Shown piece by piece: positions 4,065 to 7,761 of a stretch of DNA of 9,819 nucleotides. The stretch lies in NCBI GenBank assembly GCA_021802595.1, contig JAJZRT010000092.1:1-9819 (forward strand), read 5' to 3'. The stretch comes from Pseudomonadota bacterium. GTDB taxonomy: Bacteria > Pseudomonadota > Gammaproteobacteria > Burkholderiales > Thiobacillaceae. The translations under genes and the position numbers were made by a program. The notes below the pieces were generated by a model, which was not told the origin of the DNA, ran no database searches, and saw only the letters and a program-made list of their open reading frames with translations. Each line of letters opens with the position of its first letter. Position 1 is the first letter of the stretch.

Positions 4065-5336
4065 TCAGGCCTTGATCTTGAAGCTGTCGGCATAGGCCTT
4101 GGGGTTCTTGCCGTCCCATACCACGCCGTCGATCAGCTTGCTGCTGCGCATGTCGGATTTCGGCAGCGGCGTCTTGGTCATCGCGGCGGCCTGCTTGTAG
4201 ATGTCGATGCGATTGACCTTCTTCGCCACCGCCAGGTAATCCGGATGCGCCTTCAGCAAGCCCCAGCGCTTGTGCTGGGTGAGGAACCACATGCCGTCGG
4301 ACAGGTAGGGGAAGCCCACCAGGCCGTTGTTGTAGAACTTCATGTAGTTGGGGTCGGTCCACTTCCTGCCGATGCCGTTGTCGTACTGGCCGAGCATGCG
4401 GTCCTCGATCGAGTCGAAGTCGGTGTTGACGTAGGACTTGGCCGAGATGATCTTGGCGACTTCGGAGCGGTTGCTCATGGTGTCGATGTACTTCGACGCG
4501 TCGAGGATCGCCGCCACCATCGCGCGCGCCGTGTTCGGATACTTCTGTACGAACTCGGCGGTGGTGCCGAGCACCTTCTCCGGGTGGTCCTTCCAGATGT
4601 CCTGCGTCGTCACCGCGGTGAAGCCGATGTTGTCGCGGATCGCGCGCGCGTTCCATGGCTCACCCACGCAATAGCCGTCCATGTTGTCGACGCGCATGTT
4701 GGCGACCATCTGCGGCGGCGGCACGGTGATGACCTTGGCCTGGGTGAAGGGGTTGATCCCGTACGCCGCCAGCCAGTAGTACAGCCACATCGCGTGGGTG
4801 CCGGTGGGGAAGGTCTGGGCGAAGGTGTACTCCTTCGGTTCGGCGGCGACCAGCTTGGCGAGCGAGGCGCCGTCGGTCACGCCCTTGGCCTTGAGCTGGT
4901 TCGACAGCGTGATCGCCTGGCCGTTGTTGTTGAGCGTGGCGAGCACCGCCATGTCCTTCTTCGGCCCGCCGATGCCCATCTCCACGCCGTAGATCAGGCC
5001 ATACAGCACGTGTGCGGCGTCGAGCTCGCCGTTCACCAGCTTGTCGCGCACCGCCGCCCACGAGGCTTCCTTGCTGGGCGTGATCGTGAGGCCGTATTTC
5101 TTGTCGAAACCCTTGACCGAGGCCATTACGACGCTGGCGCAATCGGTCAGCGGAATGAAGCCGATGTTGAGACTGGGTTTTTCGGGAGCGTCGGAACCGG
5201 CGGCCCAGGCACCCTGGCGCACGCCGGGTGGCACCATGGCCATGAGGGCGGCGGCGACGGAAAGTCCGGTGGTCTTTTTCATGAAGTCACGCTTGCTCTG
5301 GTCTAGTACGAGGGGTTGGTCCTGGCTGTCGCTCAC
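4065..5336 (-). CDS. nrtA: Periplasmic nitrate/nitrite-binding protein NrtA (CmpA/NrtA family)
   Basis: NrtA captures nitrate or nitrite in the periplasm and delivers it to NrtB. The 423 residues begin with an export signal: charged region with SKRDFMKK (14-21), hydrophobic stretch LSVAAALMAMV, and a likely cleavage site near AWA-AGSD (44-48). The K-R-D-F motif resembles a twin-arginine signal with Lys for the first Arg. There is no lipobox cysteine. The mature part opens with LNIGFIPLTDCASVVMA and contains the NrtA/SsuA-type lobes (ASWAAVRDKLVNGELDAAH, CVGEPWNARAI). I chose the GTG at 5336, with GGAG eight bases upstream, over in-frame starts further up, because those would translate through the leader terminator. 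It is the first gene of the operon; the globin follows 17 bases after its stop. A cytoplasmic NasS-type sensor is excluded by the signal peptide. Nitrate versus nitrite or cyanate preference cannot be read directly. Confidence 0.9.
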   Translation of the reverse strand: MSDSQDQPLVLDQSKRDFMKKTTGLSVAAALMAMVPPGVRQGAWAAGSDAPEKPSLNIGFIPLTDCASVVMASVKGFDKKYGLTITPSKEASWAAVRDKLVNGELDAAHVLYGLIYGVEMGIGGPKKDMAVLATLNNNGQAITLSNQLKAKGVTDGASLAKLVAAEPKEYTFAQTFPTGTHAMWLYYWLAAYGINPFTQAKVITVPPPQMVANMRVDNMDGYCVGEPWNARAIRDNIGFTAVTTQDIWKDHPEKVLGTTAEFVQKYPNTARAMVAAILDASKYIDTMSNRSEVAKIISAKSYVNTDFDSIEDRMLGQYDNGIGRKWTDPNYMKFYNNGLVGFPYLSDGMWFLTQHKRWGLLKAHPDYLAVAKKVNRIDIYKQAAAMTKTPLPKSDMRSSKLIDGVVWDGKNPKAYADSFKIKA

Positions 5337-5348
5337 GGTGTGTTCTCC

Positions 5349-5384
5349 AAATAAAAAGGCGTCGCCTTCAGGGCGGACGCCTTT
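5349..5384 (-). terminator. Intrinsic terminator in the nrtA leader (attenuator)
   Basis: On the minus strand AAAGGCGTC (5384-5376) pairs with GACGCCTTT (5363-5355). With one bulged C, GCC (5374-5372) pairs with GGC (5366-5364), closing a five-base loop. The U-rich tail TTTTTATTT (5357-5349) runs directly into the GGAG of nrtA. It lies entirely between the predicted transcription start and the start codon, so it can only act as an attenuator. Its 5' arm is shared with hairpin P2 of the ANTAR element. Confidence 0.85.
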
Positions 5385-5444
5385 GTCCATTGATAAAAAG
5401 AGTTTGACGATCACGCTGAAAGCCACATCGTTGCGACTGTTCAG
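5374..5444 (-). promoter_or_regulatory. Two-hairpin ANTAR (NasT/NasR-type) antitermination element in nrtA leader
   Basis: P1 (5416-5444): CTGAA pairs with TTCAG and AGTCGC with GTGGCT (two G-U pairs, one bulged C), presenting the six-base loop AACGAT (5432-5427). P2 (5374-5389): TGGAC pairs with GTCCG around the six-base loop AAAGGC (5384-5379). Both loops have A at position 1 and G at position 4, the signature recognised by ANTAR proteins such as NasR, NasT and EutV. P2 and the downstream terminator share bases 5374-5384 and exclude each other, so binding should favour read-through into nrtA. The ANTAR protein gene lies immediately upstream. Confidence 0.82.
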
Positions 5445-5453
5445 TTCAGGTTT

Positions 5454-5470
5454 AGCAACCGTTGTGCCAG
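5454..5470 (-). promoter_or_regulatory. Sigma-54 (RpoN) promoter of the nrtA operon
   Basis: The minus strand reads CTGGCACAACGGTTGCT, a near-perfect match to YTGGCACG-N4-TTGCW with the GG and GC doublets exactly 10 bases apart. Transcription is predicted to start at about 5443-5444, which is the first base of hairpin P1. That agreement supports both assignments. Confidence 0.85.
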
Positions 5471-5545
5471 CTGCCAAAGCGCCTTGTATTGCATGGATTT
5501 TCAGGAAACCGGGCGGATCATGGGCCCACGCATGCCGTCCATTCG

Positions 5546-5562
5546 TGCACCCGTGCAGTGCA
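5546..5562 (-). promoter_or_regulatory. NtrC (NtrC/GlnG) binding site upstream of nrtA
   Basis: TGCACTGCACGGGTGCA has the perfect dyad arms TGCAC-N7-GTGCA, the same arms and spacing as the NtrC site of enteric glnA promoters (TGCACC-N5-GGTGCA). Its centre is about 111 bases upstream of the predicted start, a normal enhancer distance for sigma-54 activation. A weak second half-site may adjoin it (TGCAC-N7-CGGCA, 5533-5549). Confidence 0.75.
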
Positions 5563-5596
5563 TGCTTTCAATGCCGTGCACCAATCAGGAGGCGCC

Positions 5597-6163
5597 TCAC
5601 GCCAAGGGTTTTTGCAGGATCTGCCGCGCGATGTCCGCCAGCTTCAGGCCGCGATCCATCGCCGCGCGCCGCATCTCGCGATACACCTCGGGTTCCGATG
5701 CGCCGGTTTGTTTGATGAGCAATGCCTTGGCCTGGTCGATCAGCTTGCGTTCCGACAGTTCGAGGCGCGTCTGTTCGAGCTGGTCGTGCAAGGCCTGGTA
5801 GGCTTCGAAGCGCGATACCGCGACGTCGAGAATGGGGCGTATGCGCGCAGGGTCGAGGCCGTCGACCACGTAAGAGGTCACGCCCGCCTGCGTTGCCGCG
5901 CGGATCGCCTCGGTGCTGCCGTCGCCGGTGAACATCACGATCGGGCGCGGACAATCCTGGTTCGCCACGCAGATGTGCTCCAGCGTGTCGCGGTCGGGCG
6001 AGTCGGTGGCGATGATCACCACGTCGGGACGCAGCGCCTGGATCTGCACGTCCAGGCTGCGCGCGGAATTCAGCGTGGCCGTCACCACGCAGCCCGCCGC
6101 TTCCAGCGCAGGTACCAGCATCGCCAGCCGCTCGGGCTGGTTTTCAACAATCAATACGCGCAT
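5597..6163 (-). CDS. nasT: ANTAR-domain antiterminator, NasT-like nitrate response regulator
   Basis: This is an RNA-binding antiterminator expected to act on the nrtA leader. The 188 residues comprise a receiver-like domain (1-115, starting MRVLIVENQPERL), a helical coiled-coil linker (about 116-138) and an ANTAR domain (about 138-185: ERKLIDQAKALLI, YREMRRAAMDRGLKLADIARQIL). The position equivalent to the phosphorylated Asp is alanine (A52 in IIATDSP) and the first acidic-pocket residues are E7-N8, so this is a pseudo-receiver. That fits NasT proteins, which are controlled by binding NasS rather than by phosphorylation. No nasS-like gene is visible in the window. I chose the ATG at 6163 because the domain begins exactly there; upstream in-frame extension to 6412 would cross a terminator. 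GAAG five bases upstream is a modest Shine-Dalgarno. The gene is followed by the nrtA control region on the same strand, with no terminator seen. Confidence 0.88.
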   Translation of the reverse strand: MRVLIVENQPERLAMLVPALEAAGCVVTATLNSARSLDVQIQALRPDVVIIATDSPDRDTLEHICVANQDCPRPIVMFTGDGSTEAIRAATQAGVTSYVVDGLDPARIRPILDVAVSRFEAYQALHDQLEQTRLELSERKLIDQAKALLIKQTGASEPEVYREMRRAAMDRGLKLADIARQILQKPLA

Positions 6164-6191
6164 GTCTGCTTCATGTATCCGGTGGCCCCCC

Positions 6192-6218
6192 AAAAAAGGC
6201 GGCCTCCGGAGAGGCCGC
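6192..6218 (-). terminator. Intrinsic terminator in the leader of the nasT-like gene
   Basis: On the minus strand GCGGCCTC pairs perfectly with GAGGCCGC around the loop TCCG, followed by CTTTTTTG. It ends 28 bases before the nasT-like ATG and lies downstream of a sigma-54-like promoter, so it may attenuate that gene. An alternative pairing is available: CCTCCG (6229-6224) with CGGAGG (6208-6203). This would destroy the terminator. It could instead simply end transcription arriving from the DUF4124 gene, although that gene has its own candidate terminator. Confidence 0.75.
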
Positions 6219-6279
6219 AAAATCGGAGGAGACTGCCTGAGCAACCTGGCCTTGCGGTTTGGATACTCATTCTGGATGT

Positions 6280-6296
6280 AGCAGGGGGCGTGCCAG
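6280..6296 (-). promoter_or_regulatory. Sigma-54 (RpoN) promoter of the nasT-like gene
   Basis: The minus strand reads CTGGCACGCCCCCTGCT. It matches YTGGCACG-N4-TTGCW at all but one base, with the GG and GC doublets 10 bases apart. The predicted start is about 6269, giving a leader of about 105 nt that contains the terminator hairpin. Confidence 0.72.
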
Positions 6297-6360
6297 CTTT
6301 GAGAGTGGTTAATTATCAAATGCTTATGCGTTTTCCGGCGGGGCGGGACGCGGATCGCGG

Positions 6361-6377
6361 TGAACGGTTGTGGTGCA
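6361..6377 (-). promoter_or_regulatory. NtrC-like site upstream of the nasT-like gene
   Basis: The minus strand reads TGCACCACAACCGTTCA, arms TGCAC-N7-GTTCA, one base away from the perfect NtrC palindrome. Its centre is about 100 bases upstream of the predicted sigma-54 start, close to the spacing seen at nrtA. Confidence 0.6.
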
Positions 6378-6379
6378 CG

Positions 6380-6397
6380 GAGCCGGAAAACCGGCTC
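6380..6397. repeat. Perfect hairpin without U-tract
   Basis: GAGCCGG and CCGGCTC form a 7-bp stem around a 4-base A/T loop. Neither strand has a T-run directly after it. It lies between the candidate terminator of the DUF4124 gene and the NtrC-like site, and may be part of the same termination region. Confidence 0.5.
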
Positions 6398-6416
6398 AAA
6401 ACGGGGCGCCACCCCG
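6398..6416 (-). terminator. Candidate weak terminator after the DUF4124 gene
   Basis: On the minus strand CGGGG (6416-6412) pairs with CCCCG (6406-6402) around a 5-base loop, followed by TTTT (6401-6398). The stem is short and GC-rich and the T-run is only four bases, so termination is plausible but not certain. It lies about 34 bases after the stop codon of the DUF4124 gene. Confidence 0.4.
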
Positions 6417-6449
6417 GGCCTCTGCCGTGCTTCGACGCGGGGCCGGCAT

Positions 6450-6863
6450 TCAGCGTGAGGGGTGGCGGGACTTGTCGAGATGCCGCCGCGGGGCCATTCT
6501 GACAGGCGGGTAGTAGATCGGCTGGGGCACGTACACCGGCTTTTCGATTACGATCGGCGCCGGTGGGGGCTGCCTCATCGCGCGCAGCCTGGCTTCCTCG
6601 GCTTCCTGCGCAAGGCGCCGGGCTTCCATTTCGCTGGCCTGTTCCCGCATCCGTTTCAGCCGCGCCTCGGCCTGCCGGGTTTCTTCGGCGGAGGGCTGCG
6701 GCGGCAGTTCGACGGCCCGCGCCCGGGTTCCCGCAGGGGGCGGGGCGGAGGAATAGGTCACCTGCCCCGCACGATCCACCCATTTGTAGAGCGGAGCGGC
6801 GCTGGCTGTCTGCCAGACGAGTCCGGCGAGCAGCCAGGGCCAGGGCAGGGCATGGGCTGGCAT
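6450..6863 (-). CDS. Exported DUF4124-domain protein
   Basis: A small exported protein of unknown function, 137 residues. Residues 1-23 form a signal peptide ending at SAA. The start of the mature protein, APLYKWVDRAGQVTYSSAPP (24-43), is the characteristic DUF4124 motif (YKWVD..G.V.YS). A charged helical, probably coiled-coil segment rich in Glu, Arg and Ala follows (about 58-98). The C-terminal tail is Pro/Tyr-rich (PAPIVIEKPVYVPQPIYYPP) and ends very basic (RRHLDKSRHPSR). I chose the ATG at 6863; a TTG directly before it is also in frame, and GGAGG lies nine bases upstream of the ATG. DUF4124 proteins are common in betaproteobacteria and have no established role. The gene lies about 100 bases after the hydrolase gene on the same strand and need not be functionally linked to the nitrate genes. 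Confidence 0.85.
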   Translation of the reverse strand: MPAHALPWPWLLAGLVWQTASAAPLYKWVDRAGQVTYSSAPPPAGTRARAVELPPQPSAEETRQAEARLKRMREQASEMEARRLAQEAEEARLRAMRQPPPAPIVIEKPVYVPQPIYYPPVRMAPRRHLDKSRHPSR

Positions 6864-6966
6864 CAACGTGATCCTCCCCAGCCCGGCTCGGGGGGATGGA
6901 AAAGGGGGTATGCCCTTTCCTTCCCGGGAGATGGACGCCCGCTGCCGGGCCTGCGCCGGTGCGTCA

Positions 6967-7761
6967 TCATGTGCAGCGCATCTCCGGCGTCAACTTCATC
7001 CACTTCATCAGCCACGCCTTCGCCCGTGCGCGCGCATGCCGCGTGGCGATCTTTTCTTCCGGCGTCTGGTCCGGACGGAAGTCGAACGCACGCCGCGCCA
7101 TCGGATATTCCTGCCATTCGACCGGCACGCCGCGTTCCCACAGCGCATAGAACGCGCGGCCGCCGTTCATGCGGCGCAGTTCGTAGTCGGCGTCGCCGAT
7201 GAGATAGAGGACCGGCGTGGTGATCTGCATGATCTCGGGCGCGACGCGGAACAGCTGGTCGGGCTCGGGCGCATTGGGGTTCTGCATGTGGCCGTAGTAG
7301 CTGACGATGGCGGCGATGTCGGGGCCGCGCCTGGCGGCCAGCCGGATCGCGTAGTAGGGGCCGCGCGACAGGCCGACGATACCGACCGGCTGCTTGCAGA
7401 CGTTGGACAGCGATTTCAGGTAGTCCAGCCCGGCTTCCACGTCCATTTCGGTATCGGGATTGTGCGCCGAGGGCCAGCGCTCGATGAAGCGGCCGCTCTG
7501 CCAGTCGGGGGCGACGACCAGGAAGCCCTGTTCGGCGAGCTCGCGTACGTGGGCGCGCTCGTCGCCTTCGTAGCCGCGCTTGGCGTGGATGAACAGCACG
7601 GGCGGGAAAGGCCCCTTGCCCCCGGGGGTGGCGACCTCGACCGGCACCTCGGTGCCGTCGGCGGATTTGATCGTGGTCTTGCTCAGTTCGACCGCCTGGC
7701 CGAAGGACGGCACGCCCAGCGCCGATGCTAAGATGGCGGCCGCGATGACACGTCTTTTCAT
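6967..7761 (-). CDS. Exported dienelactone-hydrolase-family alpha/beta hydrolase
   Basis: A predicted periplasmic esterase-like protein of 264 residues. Residues 1-24 form a signal peptide (basic MKRR, hydrophobic core, AxA-like end at GQA-VE). The alpha/beta-hydrolase core starts near 52 (PPVLFIHAKRG). The nucleophile elbow is GLSRG with Ser132, where classical dienelactone hydrolase has Cys. An acid residue is available in LIGDADYEL (D190 or D192). In DLH proteins the catalytic His sits in a motif like YPGAxHAF; here the aligned sequence is YPMARRAFDF, with Arg224 at that place. H242 (ATRHARA) is the only nearby histidine. The enzyme may therefore be altered or inactive, or use another His. 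The ATG at 7761 has GGGAG seven bases upstream. The reading frame stays open upstream across the repeats, but there is no homology there. Substrate is unknown. Confidence 0.8.
   Translation of the reverse strand: MKRRVIAAAILASALGVPSFGQAVELSKTTIKSADGTEVPVEVATPGGKGPFPPVLFIHAKRGYEGDERAHVRELAEQGFLVVAPDWQSGRFIERWPSAHNPDTEMDVEAGLDYLKSLSNVCKQPVGIVGLSRGPYYAIRLAARRGPDIAAIVSYYGHMQNPNAPEPDQLFRVAPEIMQITTPVLYLIGDADYELRRMNGGRAFYALWERGVPVEWQEYPMARRAFDFRPDQTPEEKIATRHARARAKAWLMKWMKLTPEMRCT

Follow-up and report, generated by a model that had tools for sequence, protein, structure and literature searches.

The DNA analysed here, a stretch of 9,819 nt from a bacterium of the family Thiobacillaceae (hereafter, the window), carries on its minus strand, in the gap between a nasT-type gene (6163–5597) and nrtA (5336–4065), a leader which, with a probability of roughly 0.87 judged from sequence comparison, is activated by nitrogen starvation and operates by NasT antitermination, binding of NasT and read-through into nrtA being predicted. 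The leader is known in kind and does not represent a new kind of switch. What is apparently new is its setting, namely, a sensor seemingly gone in most relatives, an altered NasT receiver and, in series with the first leader, another that resembles an attenuator. The initial annotation of this region, which proposed an ANTAR two-hairpin antitermination switch, is supported as largely right about the leader.

Architecture of the nrtA leader

All features of the leader lie on the minus strand. A sigma54 −24/−12 promoter (TGGCACAACGGTTGCT, 5469–5454) matches the box pattern without mismatches, and boxes with up to two mismatches are not rare in the window (6 versus 5.05 expected). A sigma54-dependent transcript starts, by the usual spacing rule, twelve bases beyond the −12 C, which puts the predicted start at ~5443, within one base of 5444, the 5′ base of the first hairpin, with which the initial annotation had equated it. 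Further upstream, 93 nt from the box, there is an exact NtrC-like palindrome, GCAC-N7-GTGC (5561–5547); with up to one mismatch, such palindromes occur 7 times in the window versus 10.5 expected, that is, not above chance, so the weight of this site derives from its steady position in relatives rather than from rarity. A search of 5200–6300 for a sigma70 promoter gave none.

The first ANTAR hairpin, P1 (5444–5416), lies at the 5′ end of the predicted transcript. Its core (5438–5421) consists of AGTCGC (5438–5433), the hexaloop AACGAT (5432–5427) and GTGGCT (5426–5421), and is lengthened beyond a bulged C by CTGAA/TTCAG (5444–5440/5420–5416); in folding, the outermost A and U of the hexaloop pair with each other, which leaves P1 with a tetraloop. 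The second hairpin, P2 (5388–5375), comprises GGAC (5388–5385), the hexaloop AAAGGC (5384–5379) and GTCC (5378–5375). In both loops the first base is A and the fourth is G (A1 and G4), as originally described. P2 is followed by an intrinsic terminator (5384–5353), the 5′ arm of which is formed by the loop and the 3′ arm of P2: the stem, 5384–5372 with 5366–5355, begins within the P2 loop and leads into a T-run (5357–5353). Bases 5384–5375 are thus common to P2 and the terminator, so that both cannot form together, and the terminator stops just short of the nrtA GGAG (5348–5345), which precedes the GTG start codon at 5336. The overlap of P2 with the terminator and the abutment of the latter on the ribosome binding site, both claimed at the outset, are accordingly borne out.

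This arrangement is unlikely to be fortuitous: the window has a single double hairpin with terminator, none of 200 dinucleotide shuffles has one, and a terminator-overlapping hairpin by itself appears 0.03 times per shuffle on average. The terminator fold (5387–5355; −18 kcal/mol, z −5.17) was equalled in stability by none of 200 shuffles; for the 66 nt that span P1 and half of P2, stability does not exceed that of shuffles (z −0.38). Folding with and without the hairpin constraint, suggested initially as a check, favoured the terminator: the leader reaches −29.1 kcal/mol when free versus −21.1 kcal/mol with P1 and P2 forced, and the terminator beats P2 on energy alone.

Conservation in the Thiobacillus group

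A protein search of genome contigs with NasT yielded 34 loci encoding proteins 89%–97% identical, many of them titled Thiobacillus or Hydrogenophilales, which together with the window make up the 35 loci compared. Conservation of the two loops in orthologous leaders had been set beforehand as a test, and each hairpin is kept in 34 of the 35 loci: P1 with A1/G4 and at least four pairs in all save L020, by the rule used, and the P2 core GGACAAAGGCGTC in all save L015. The GGCA-N6-TTGCT box is found at the corresponding position in 34/35 loci and the terminator, under a strict rule, in 32/35, with L015, L021 and L025 failing. Loop 1 begins at a nearly constant distance from the −12 C (23 nt in 33 loci and 24 nt in one), which puts P1 at the 5′ terminus of the predicted RNA. 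An NtrC-like site (GCRC-N7-GYGC) precedes the box in 28/35 loci, mostly by 92–94 nt, and is missing from the other seven.

Two loci depart from the common organization. In L025, the P2 core sits before nrtA, about 3.4 kb further on, and the box before nrtA reads TGGCACAGGCATTGCT (L085). Between nasT and nrtA of this locus (4227–7302) lie genes for a PilJ-Hpt-HATPase kinase, for a response regulator and for a CheX protein; they have their own sigma54-like box and their own leader with a P2-like GGGC-AAAGGC-GTCC, in which no P1 was seen. In L015, P2 and the terminator were not found though NasT is 95% identical. The nrtA of this locus is 65% identical and its KR motif is changed to SRQDF; in L015 the system may be degenerating.

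An alignment of the leaders (A2; 33 rows, 29 of them distinct, L015 and L025 excluded) has 98.3% of the pair cells paired, compared to at most 55% when the partner is shifted by 1–3 positions. For P1, 97.1% of the pair cells are paired across the 29 distinct rows; its variation is mostly one-sided, and a two-sided change is confined to a single pair, a result matched by 67 of 500 shuffles. P2 is invariant across the 29 distinct rows, and covariation is therefore uninformative for this hairpin, which may be frozen by the double duty of its bases in P2 and terminator.

Predicted mechanism and targets of NasT

The presumed regulator is encoded alongside: as initially annotated, the gene at 6163–5597 on the minus strand encodes an ANTAR protein, in which Pfam identifies both the receiver (Response_reg, 34.3 bits) and the ANTAR domain (60.5 bits). 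The antitermination mechanism would then run as follows. The sites suggest that NtrC and sigma54 start the transcript at ~5443; by default, the terminator (5384–5353) would form and transcription would end before nrtA. NasT supplied by the adjoining gene presumably binds P1 and P2 through the A1 and G4 loop bases, and P2 held by NasT would occupy the 5′ arm of the terminator, allowing the polymerase to continue into nrtA. Provided that the cluster is a single operon, read-through would also reach the minus-strand genes for a single-domain globin (4053–3634; Pfam Globin, 63.3 bits), the permease NrtB (3616–2702; TIGR01183, 254.2 bits, above cut-off) and an NrtD/NtrCD-type ATPase (2590–1793; TIGR01184, 345.5 bits, above cut-off). 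Of the 35 loci, some of which end early, 16 (the window among them) have the globin at more than 200 bits, and L001 has it at 43 bits.

Each of nine relatives' genomes encodes exactly one ANTAR protein, and our leader model, R1, has one strong match in eight of them and none in G004, the genome of L015; no further target above 22 bits was found in the nine genomes. In the family sample, 25/80 genomes match R1 at E ≤0.01, with one match apiece, 19 of these at 45 bits or more. In most of these genomes, nrtA thus appears to be the sole target of NasT, with the qualification that leaders unlike R1 may escape the search. A strict pattern of box plus P2 was found in just one of the nine genomes, its permitted gap (at most 60) probably being too short for the others. 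A second ANTAR-like leader is present in genomes G005 and G006 before an oxidoreductase gene (L096, 4135–4230, and L097, 3843–3950, both on the plus strand); it has a sigma54-like box, with loop 1 again 23 nt on, and its P1 and P2 loops are only 23 nt apart. The gene behind it in G005 (L096) encodes a Pyr_redox/BFD (Pfam) oxidoreductase. The nasA gene of G001 has a sigma54-like box near the ATG and no ANTAR motif by the rule used.

A second leader RNA before nasT

The nasT gene itself is preceded by a sigma54-like box (TGGCACGCCCCCTGCT, 6295–6280, minus strand, one mismatch), and a GGCA[CT]-N6-TGCT box is found in all 34 loci compared and in L032 too. For COG3707, the ANTAR group to which NasT belongs, 66 sigma54 promoters have been predicted (PMC12316311), and an NtrC site is reported before nasT in Paracoccus denitrificans (PMC5424462). 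Between the box and the gene, we identified a conserved 78-nt structured RNA with a strong terminator (6269–6192, minus strand), ending 28 nt ahead of the nasT ATG and consisting of a 5′ hairpin (6268–6239), the mostly unpaired GGCAGUCUCCUCCGA (6237–6223) and a terminator stem (6218–6199). It is present in 34/35 loci, with inserts in L022, L028 and L033, and missing from L032, which was excluded from the corresponding alignment (A5). In A5, 99.0% of the cells are paired and six cells are changed on both sides, as many as in none of 500 shuffles; these changes are confined to two pairs, a number reached by 31 of 500 shuffles, and relatedness among the rows inflates counts of this sort. Once the terminator is removed, the fold of the remaining 50 nt is no better than that of shuffles (z −0.70). 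The leader contains an anti-Shine-Dalgarno-like UCUCCUCC, and pairing of CCUCCG with the CGGAGG of the terminator, yielding an antiterminator, is conceivable.

The distribution of this RNA is narrow. An Rfam scan gave no gathering-level match, the best being RF02278 at 22.9 bits (gathering score 50). A widespread riboswitch class was considered and rejected: among 399 genomes of the order, 37 pass E 0.01 with R2, the model of this leader, and only G001, G288 and G299, all three of which carry the nrtA leader as well, exceed 80 bits, the next match having 38.7 bits; this order-wide search used strict filters and few candidates per genome, so that weak relatives may escape. Ten other matches viewed as alignments chiefly involve the terminator. 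A more distant set of 31 nasT loci, 29 from a class sample and two from plasmid records, examined over 3.5 kb in most cases (L101–L130 represent the best 30 of the 57 genomes, out of 274, that gave a match), contained no R2 match, the best score being 14.4 bits (L121), and the plasmid and phage collections gave no relative of this leader except for a 26-base match in an Azospirillum plasmid. The open-licence literature, represented largely by titles and the beginnings of abstracts, yielded neither such a nasT leader RNA nor a case of NasT without NasS. The nasT leader thus looks lineage-specific, seen so far in the Thiobacillus group only, and is a candidate attenuator or small RNA.

The input to NasT

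NasS, a cytoplasmic protein resembling NrtA, is described as keeping NasT bound until nitrate becomes available (PMC3795266). This nitrate sensor, which normally controls NasT, seems to be missing in the close relatives. With a profile built from eight signal-less NasS proteins and a cut-off of 546 bits, NasS-level matches (546–711 bits) were obtained in 13 of 23 hand-picked genomes, seven of which had contributed rows to the profile; nothing above 432 bits was found in the other ten, which include G001, G003, G007 and G009 of the Thiobacillus group. One of the 13, G064, encodes a NasS-level protein with a Tat-like signal. In the family sample, 10/80 genomes reach at least 546 bits, and 17 of the 19 genomes with a strong leader have no NasS-level match, genome completeness not being stated; the remaining two, G005 and G006, have proteins of 611–618 bits, both with a KR-type signal, and the N-termini of the remaining family matches were read only for those among the 35 loci. 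Absence of NasS from the strain of the window itself is an extrapolation from these relatives.

The receiver of NasT is altered as well. Residue 52, the phospho-Asp position, is Ala in all 35 loci, so that the window protein does not have the phospho-accepting Asp expected of an EutV-type receiver; in the 31 more distant NasTs the position is occupied by Asp (29) or Asn (2). Nine relatives at 57%–59% identity, outside of these 31, have Ser (eight) or Ala (one), suggesting that loss of the phospho-Asp may reach beyond the Thiobacillus group. Because most relatives gave no NasS and the phospho-Asp is lost, the input to NasT would fall outside the known scheme. The initial description of this locus as a clean test case conceals a puzzle, since the NasS expected to control NasT did not turn up in most of the relatives searched.

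What would then inform NasT? The supply of free NasT, set by the sigma54-like promoter and the attenuator-like leader of nasT, is regarded as the likeliest input, albeit tentatively. In a related proposal, possible although less than probable, NasT without NasS and phospho-Asp is a constitutive antiterminator, and the leader reports NtrC and NasT dose rather than nitrate; this concerns the input only and is compatible with antitermination at nrtA. Such constitutive action is consistent with the constitutive nas expression reported for nasS mutants of P. denitrificans (PMC3795266), with the missing NasS-level match in 17/19 strong-leader genomes and with Ala52 in 35/35 loci. However, G037, G178 and G030, outside the group, have no NasS-level match yet keep Asp52, indicating that loss of NasS and loss of the Asp need not coincide, and an always-on switch has no obvious need for so conserved a leader.

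The NrtA encoded next to the leader offers another potential input. The nrtA product (5336–4065, minus strand; NMT1_2, 359 bits; best solved relative, NrtA 2g29, 301 bits) is a nitrate-binding protein with a KR-type Tat-like signal, SKRDFMKK. Its hydrophobic N-terminal stretch is present in 35/35 loci and the KR[DY]F motif with an upstream in-frame start in 31/35, the exceptions being L014 (no start before the motif), L015 (as above) and L016 and L018 (KRDS); if stop-to-stop frames are considered without requiring a start, the motif is found in 32/35. Among the NrtA-family proteins listed for the nine genomes, a list that omits the weakest PF13379 matches, all save the L015-type nrtA product have a twin-basic motif before the hydrophobic stretch. 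A tree was computed for 54 binding proteins, leaving out four rows that were duplicates or cut; in it, the window NrtA groups (100/100) with signal-less proteins encoded beside nasT in G142, G255, G171 and two Burkholderiaceae records, with the caveats that long branches meet and that the fork joining the NasS clade is weak (81/55). The NrtAs of L019, L024 and L027 have signal regions close to those of other Thiobacillus NrtAs but score only ~360–370 bits against the window NrtA; the tree, which does not include L027, places those of L019 and L024 on the side of NasS, possibly reflecting domain exchange.

Given that the Tat pathway exports folded proteins, NrtA might double as NasS, its precursor folding in the cytoplasm, binding NasT and releasing it upon nitrate binding or export. 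This reading, likewise restricted to the input, is in line with the position of NrtA in the tree and with the KR motif and in-frame start in 31/35 loci, but the interface and the binding are putative, the motif is KR rather than the classic RR, it is missing or untranslated in L014, L015, L016 and L018, and the mature part belongs to another clade in L019 and L024; we consider it rather unlikely. A wider scenario, in which Thiobacillus rebuilt NasS-NasT nitrate sensing by losing NasS and the phospho-site, keeping a Tat-exported NrtA as the sole NasS-family partner of NasT, with its folded precursor reporting nitrate, and placing two attenuators in series, such that nasT is made only when the second, lineage-specific and sigma54-driven one opens, seems unlikely.

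Comparison with known leaders

Antitermination by NasT at the nrtA leader also fits its kinship with described RNAs. The covariance-model scan advised in the initial annotation did align two Rfam families at the leader, but both below the gathering score: P11 (RF00625) with 25.4 bits against 70 and narK RNA (RF03032) with 21.4 bits against 43.2. Both alignments place the sigma54 box and P2 on the correct bases of the window; the P1 hairpin of the P11 model is aligned to bases other than P1, and the narK alignment skips its middle part. The P11 consensus contains the hexaloop AACGau and GGACAAAGGCGUCC, and that of narK contains the sigma54 box, GGcagCC-AACGGC-GGcugCC and CGAC-AAAGAC-GUCG, with A1 and G4 in each loop of both families. 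The leader near nasT in L117 matches narK with 55.1 bits, the sole gathering-level match in 14 loci scanned. Of the 31 more distant loci, 11 have a sigma54-like box, double hairpin and T-run, a count made without a shuffle control, and by the same rule 20 have no such leader within the stretch examined; the rule of a P2 overlapping a terminator, without the box, holds in 14 of the 31, with a few of these seemingly fortuitous. The P11 and narK families probably consist, wholly or partly, of NasT-type ANTAR leaders, and P11 probably corresponds to NalA.

NalA of Pseudomonas is reported to have a sigma54 start, NtrC dependence, a terminator, NasT binding and read-through (PMC12830290; PMC3973561). 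That the window leader is chiefly a stand-alone small RNA ended by the terminator, with nrtA expressed by leakage and the ANTAR likeness a by-product, is highly improbable: P11, weakly aligned here, is filed as an sRNA in Rfam and NalA was described as a small RNA (PMC3973561), but the A1/G4 hexaloops are kept in 34/35 loci near an ANTAR gene and, even for NalA, a leader function under NasT control is reported (PMC12830290).

With the nrtA leader, NasT antitermination gains a well-supported member; the leader also suggests that P11 and narK in Rfam describe leaders of one ANTAR kind. Its setting raises the question of how an ANTAR regulator that has neither a phospho-site nor, apparently, its usual sensor learns of nitrate, a question that one regulator with one strong target in most genomes searched makes easy to test.

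The closest counterpart, the NalA leader of nirBD in Pseudomonas, resembles the window leader in its sigma54 promoter and terminator, and NasT control is reported for it, whereas the window leader precedes nrtA, scores 25.4 bits against the gathering score of 70 and occurs in a group that seemingly lacks NasS. The narK RNA shares the sigma54 box and the two A1/G4 hexaloop hairpins, with the window again below the gathering score (21.4 versus 43.2 bits). The dual hairpin with A1 and G4 was defined for EutV, and was noted also for nasF and amiE (PMC3369931); the Enterococcus eut leaders likewise have two small A1/G4 hexaloop hairpins that are exclusive with a terminator (PMC3369931), but EutV responds to phosphorylation, whereas the window NasT has Ala at the phospho-site. 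Finally, the NasS-NasT pair of P. denitrificans parallels the window in that a NasT-family receiver-ANTAR protein is encoded beside an NrtA/NasS-family protein; in the window, however, this NrtA neighbour has a signal-like N-terminus, and a cytoplasmic NasS was not found in most of the relatives searched.
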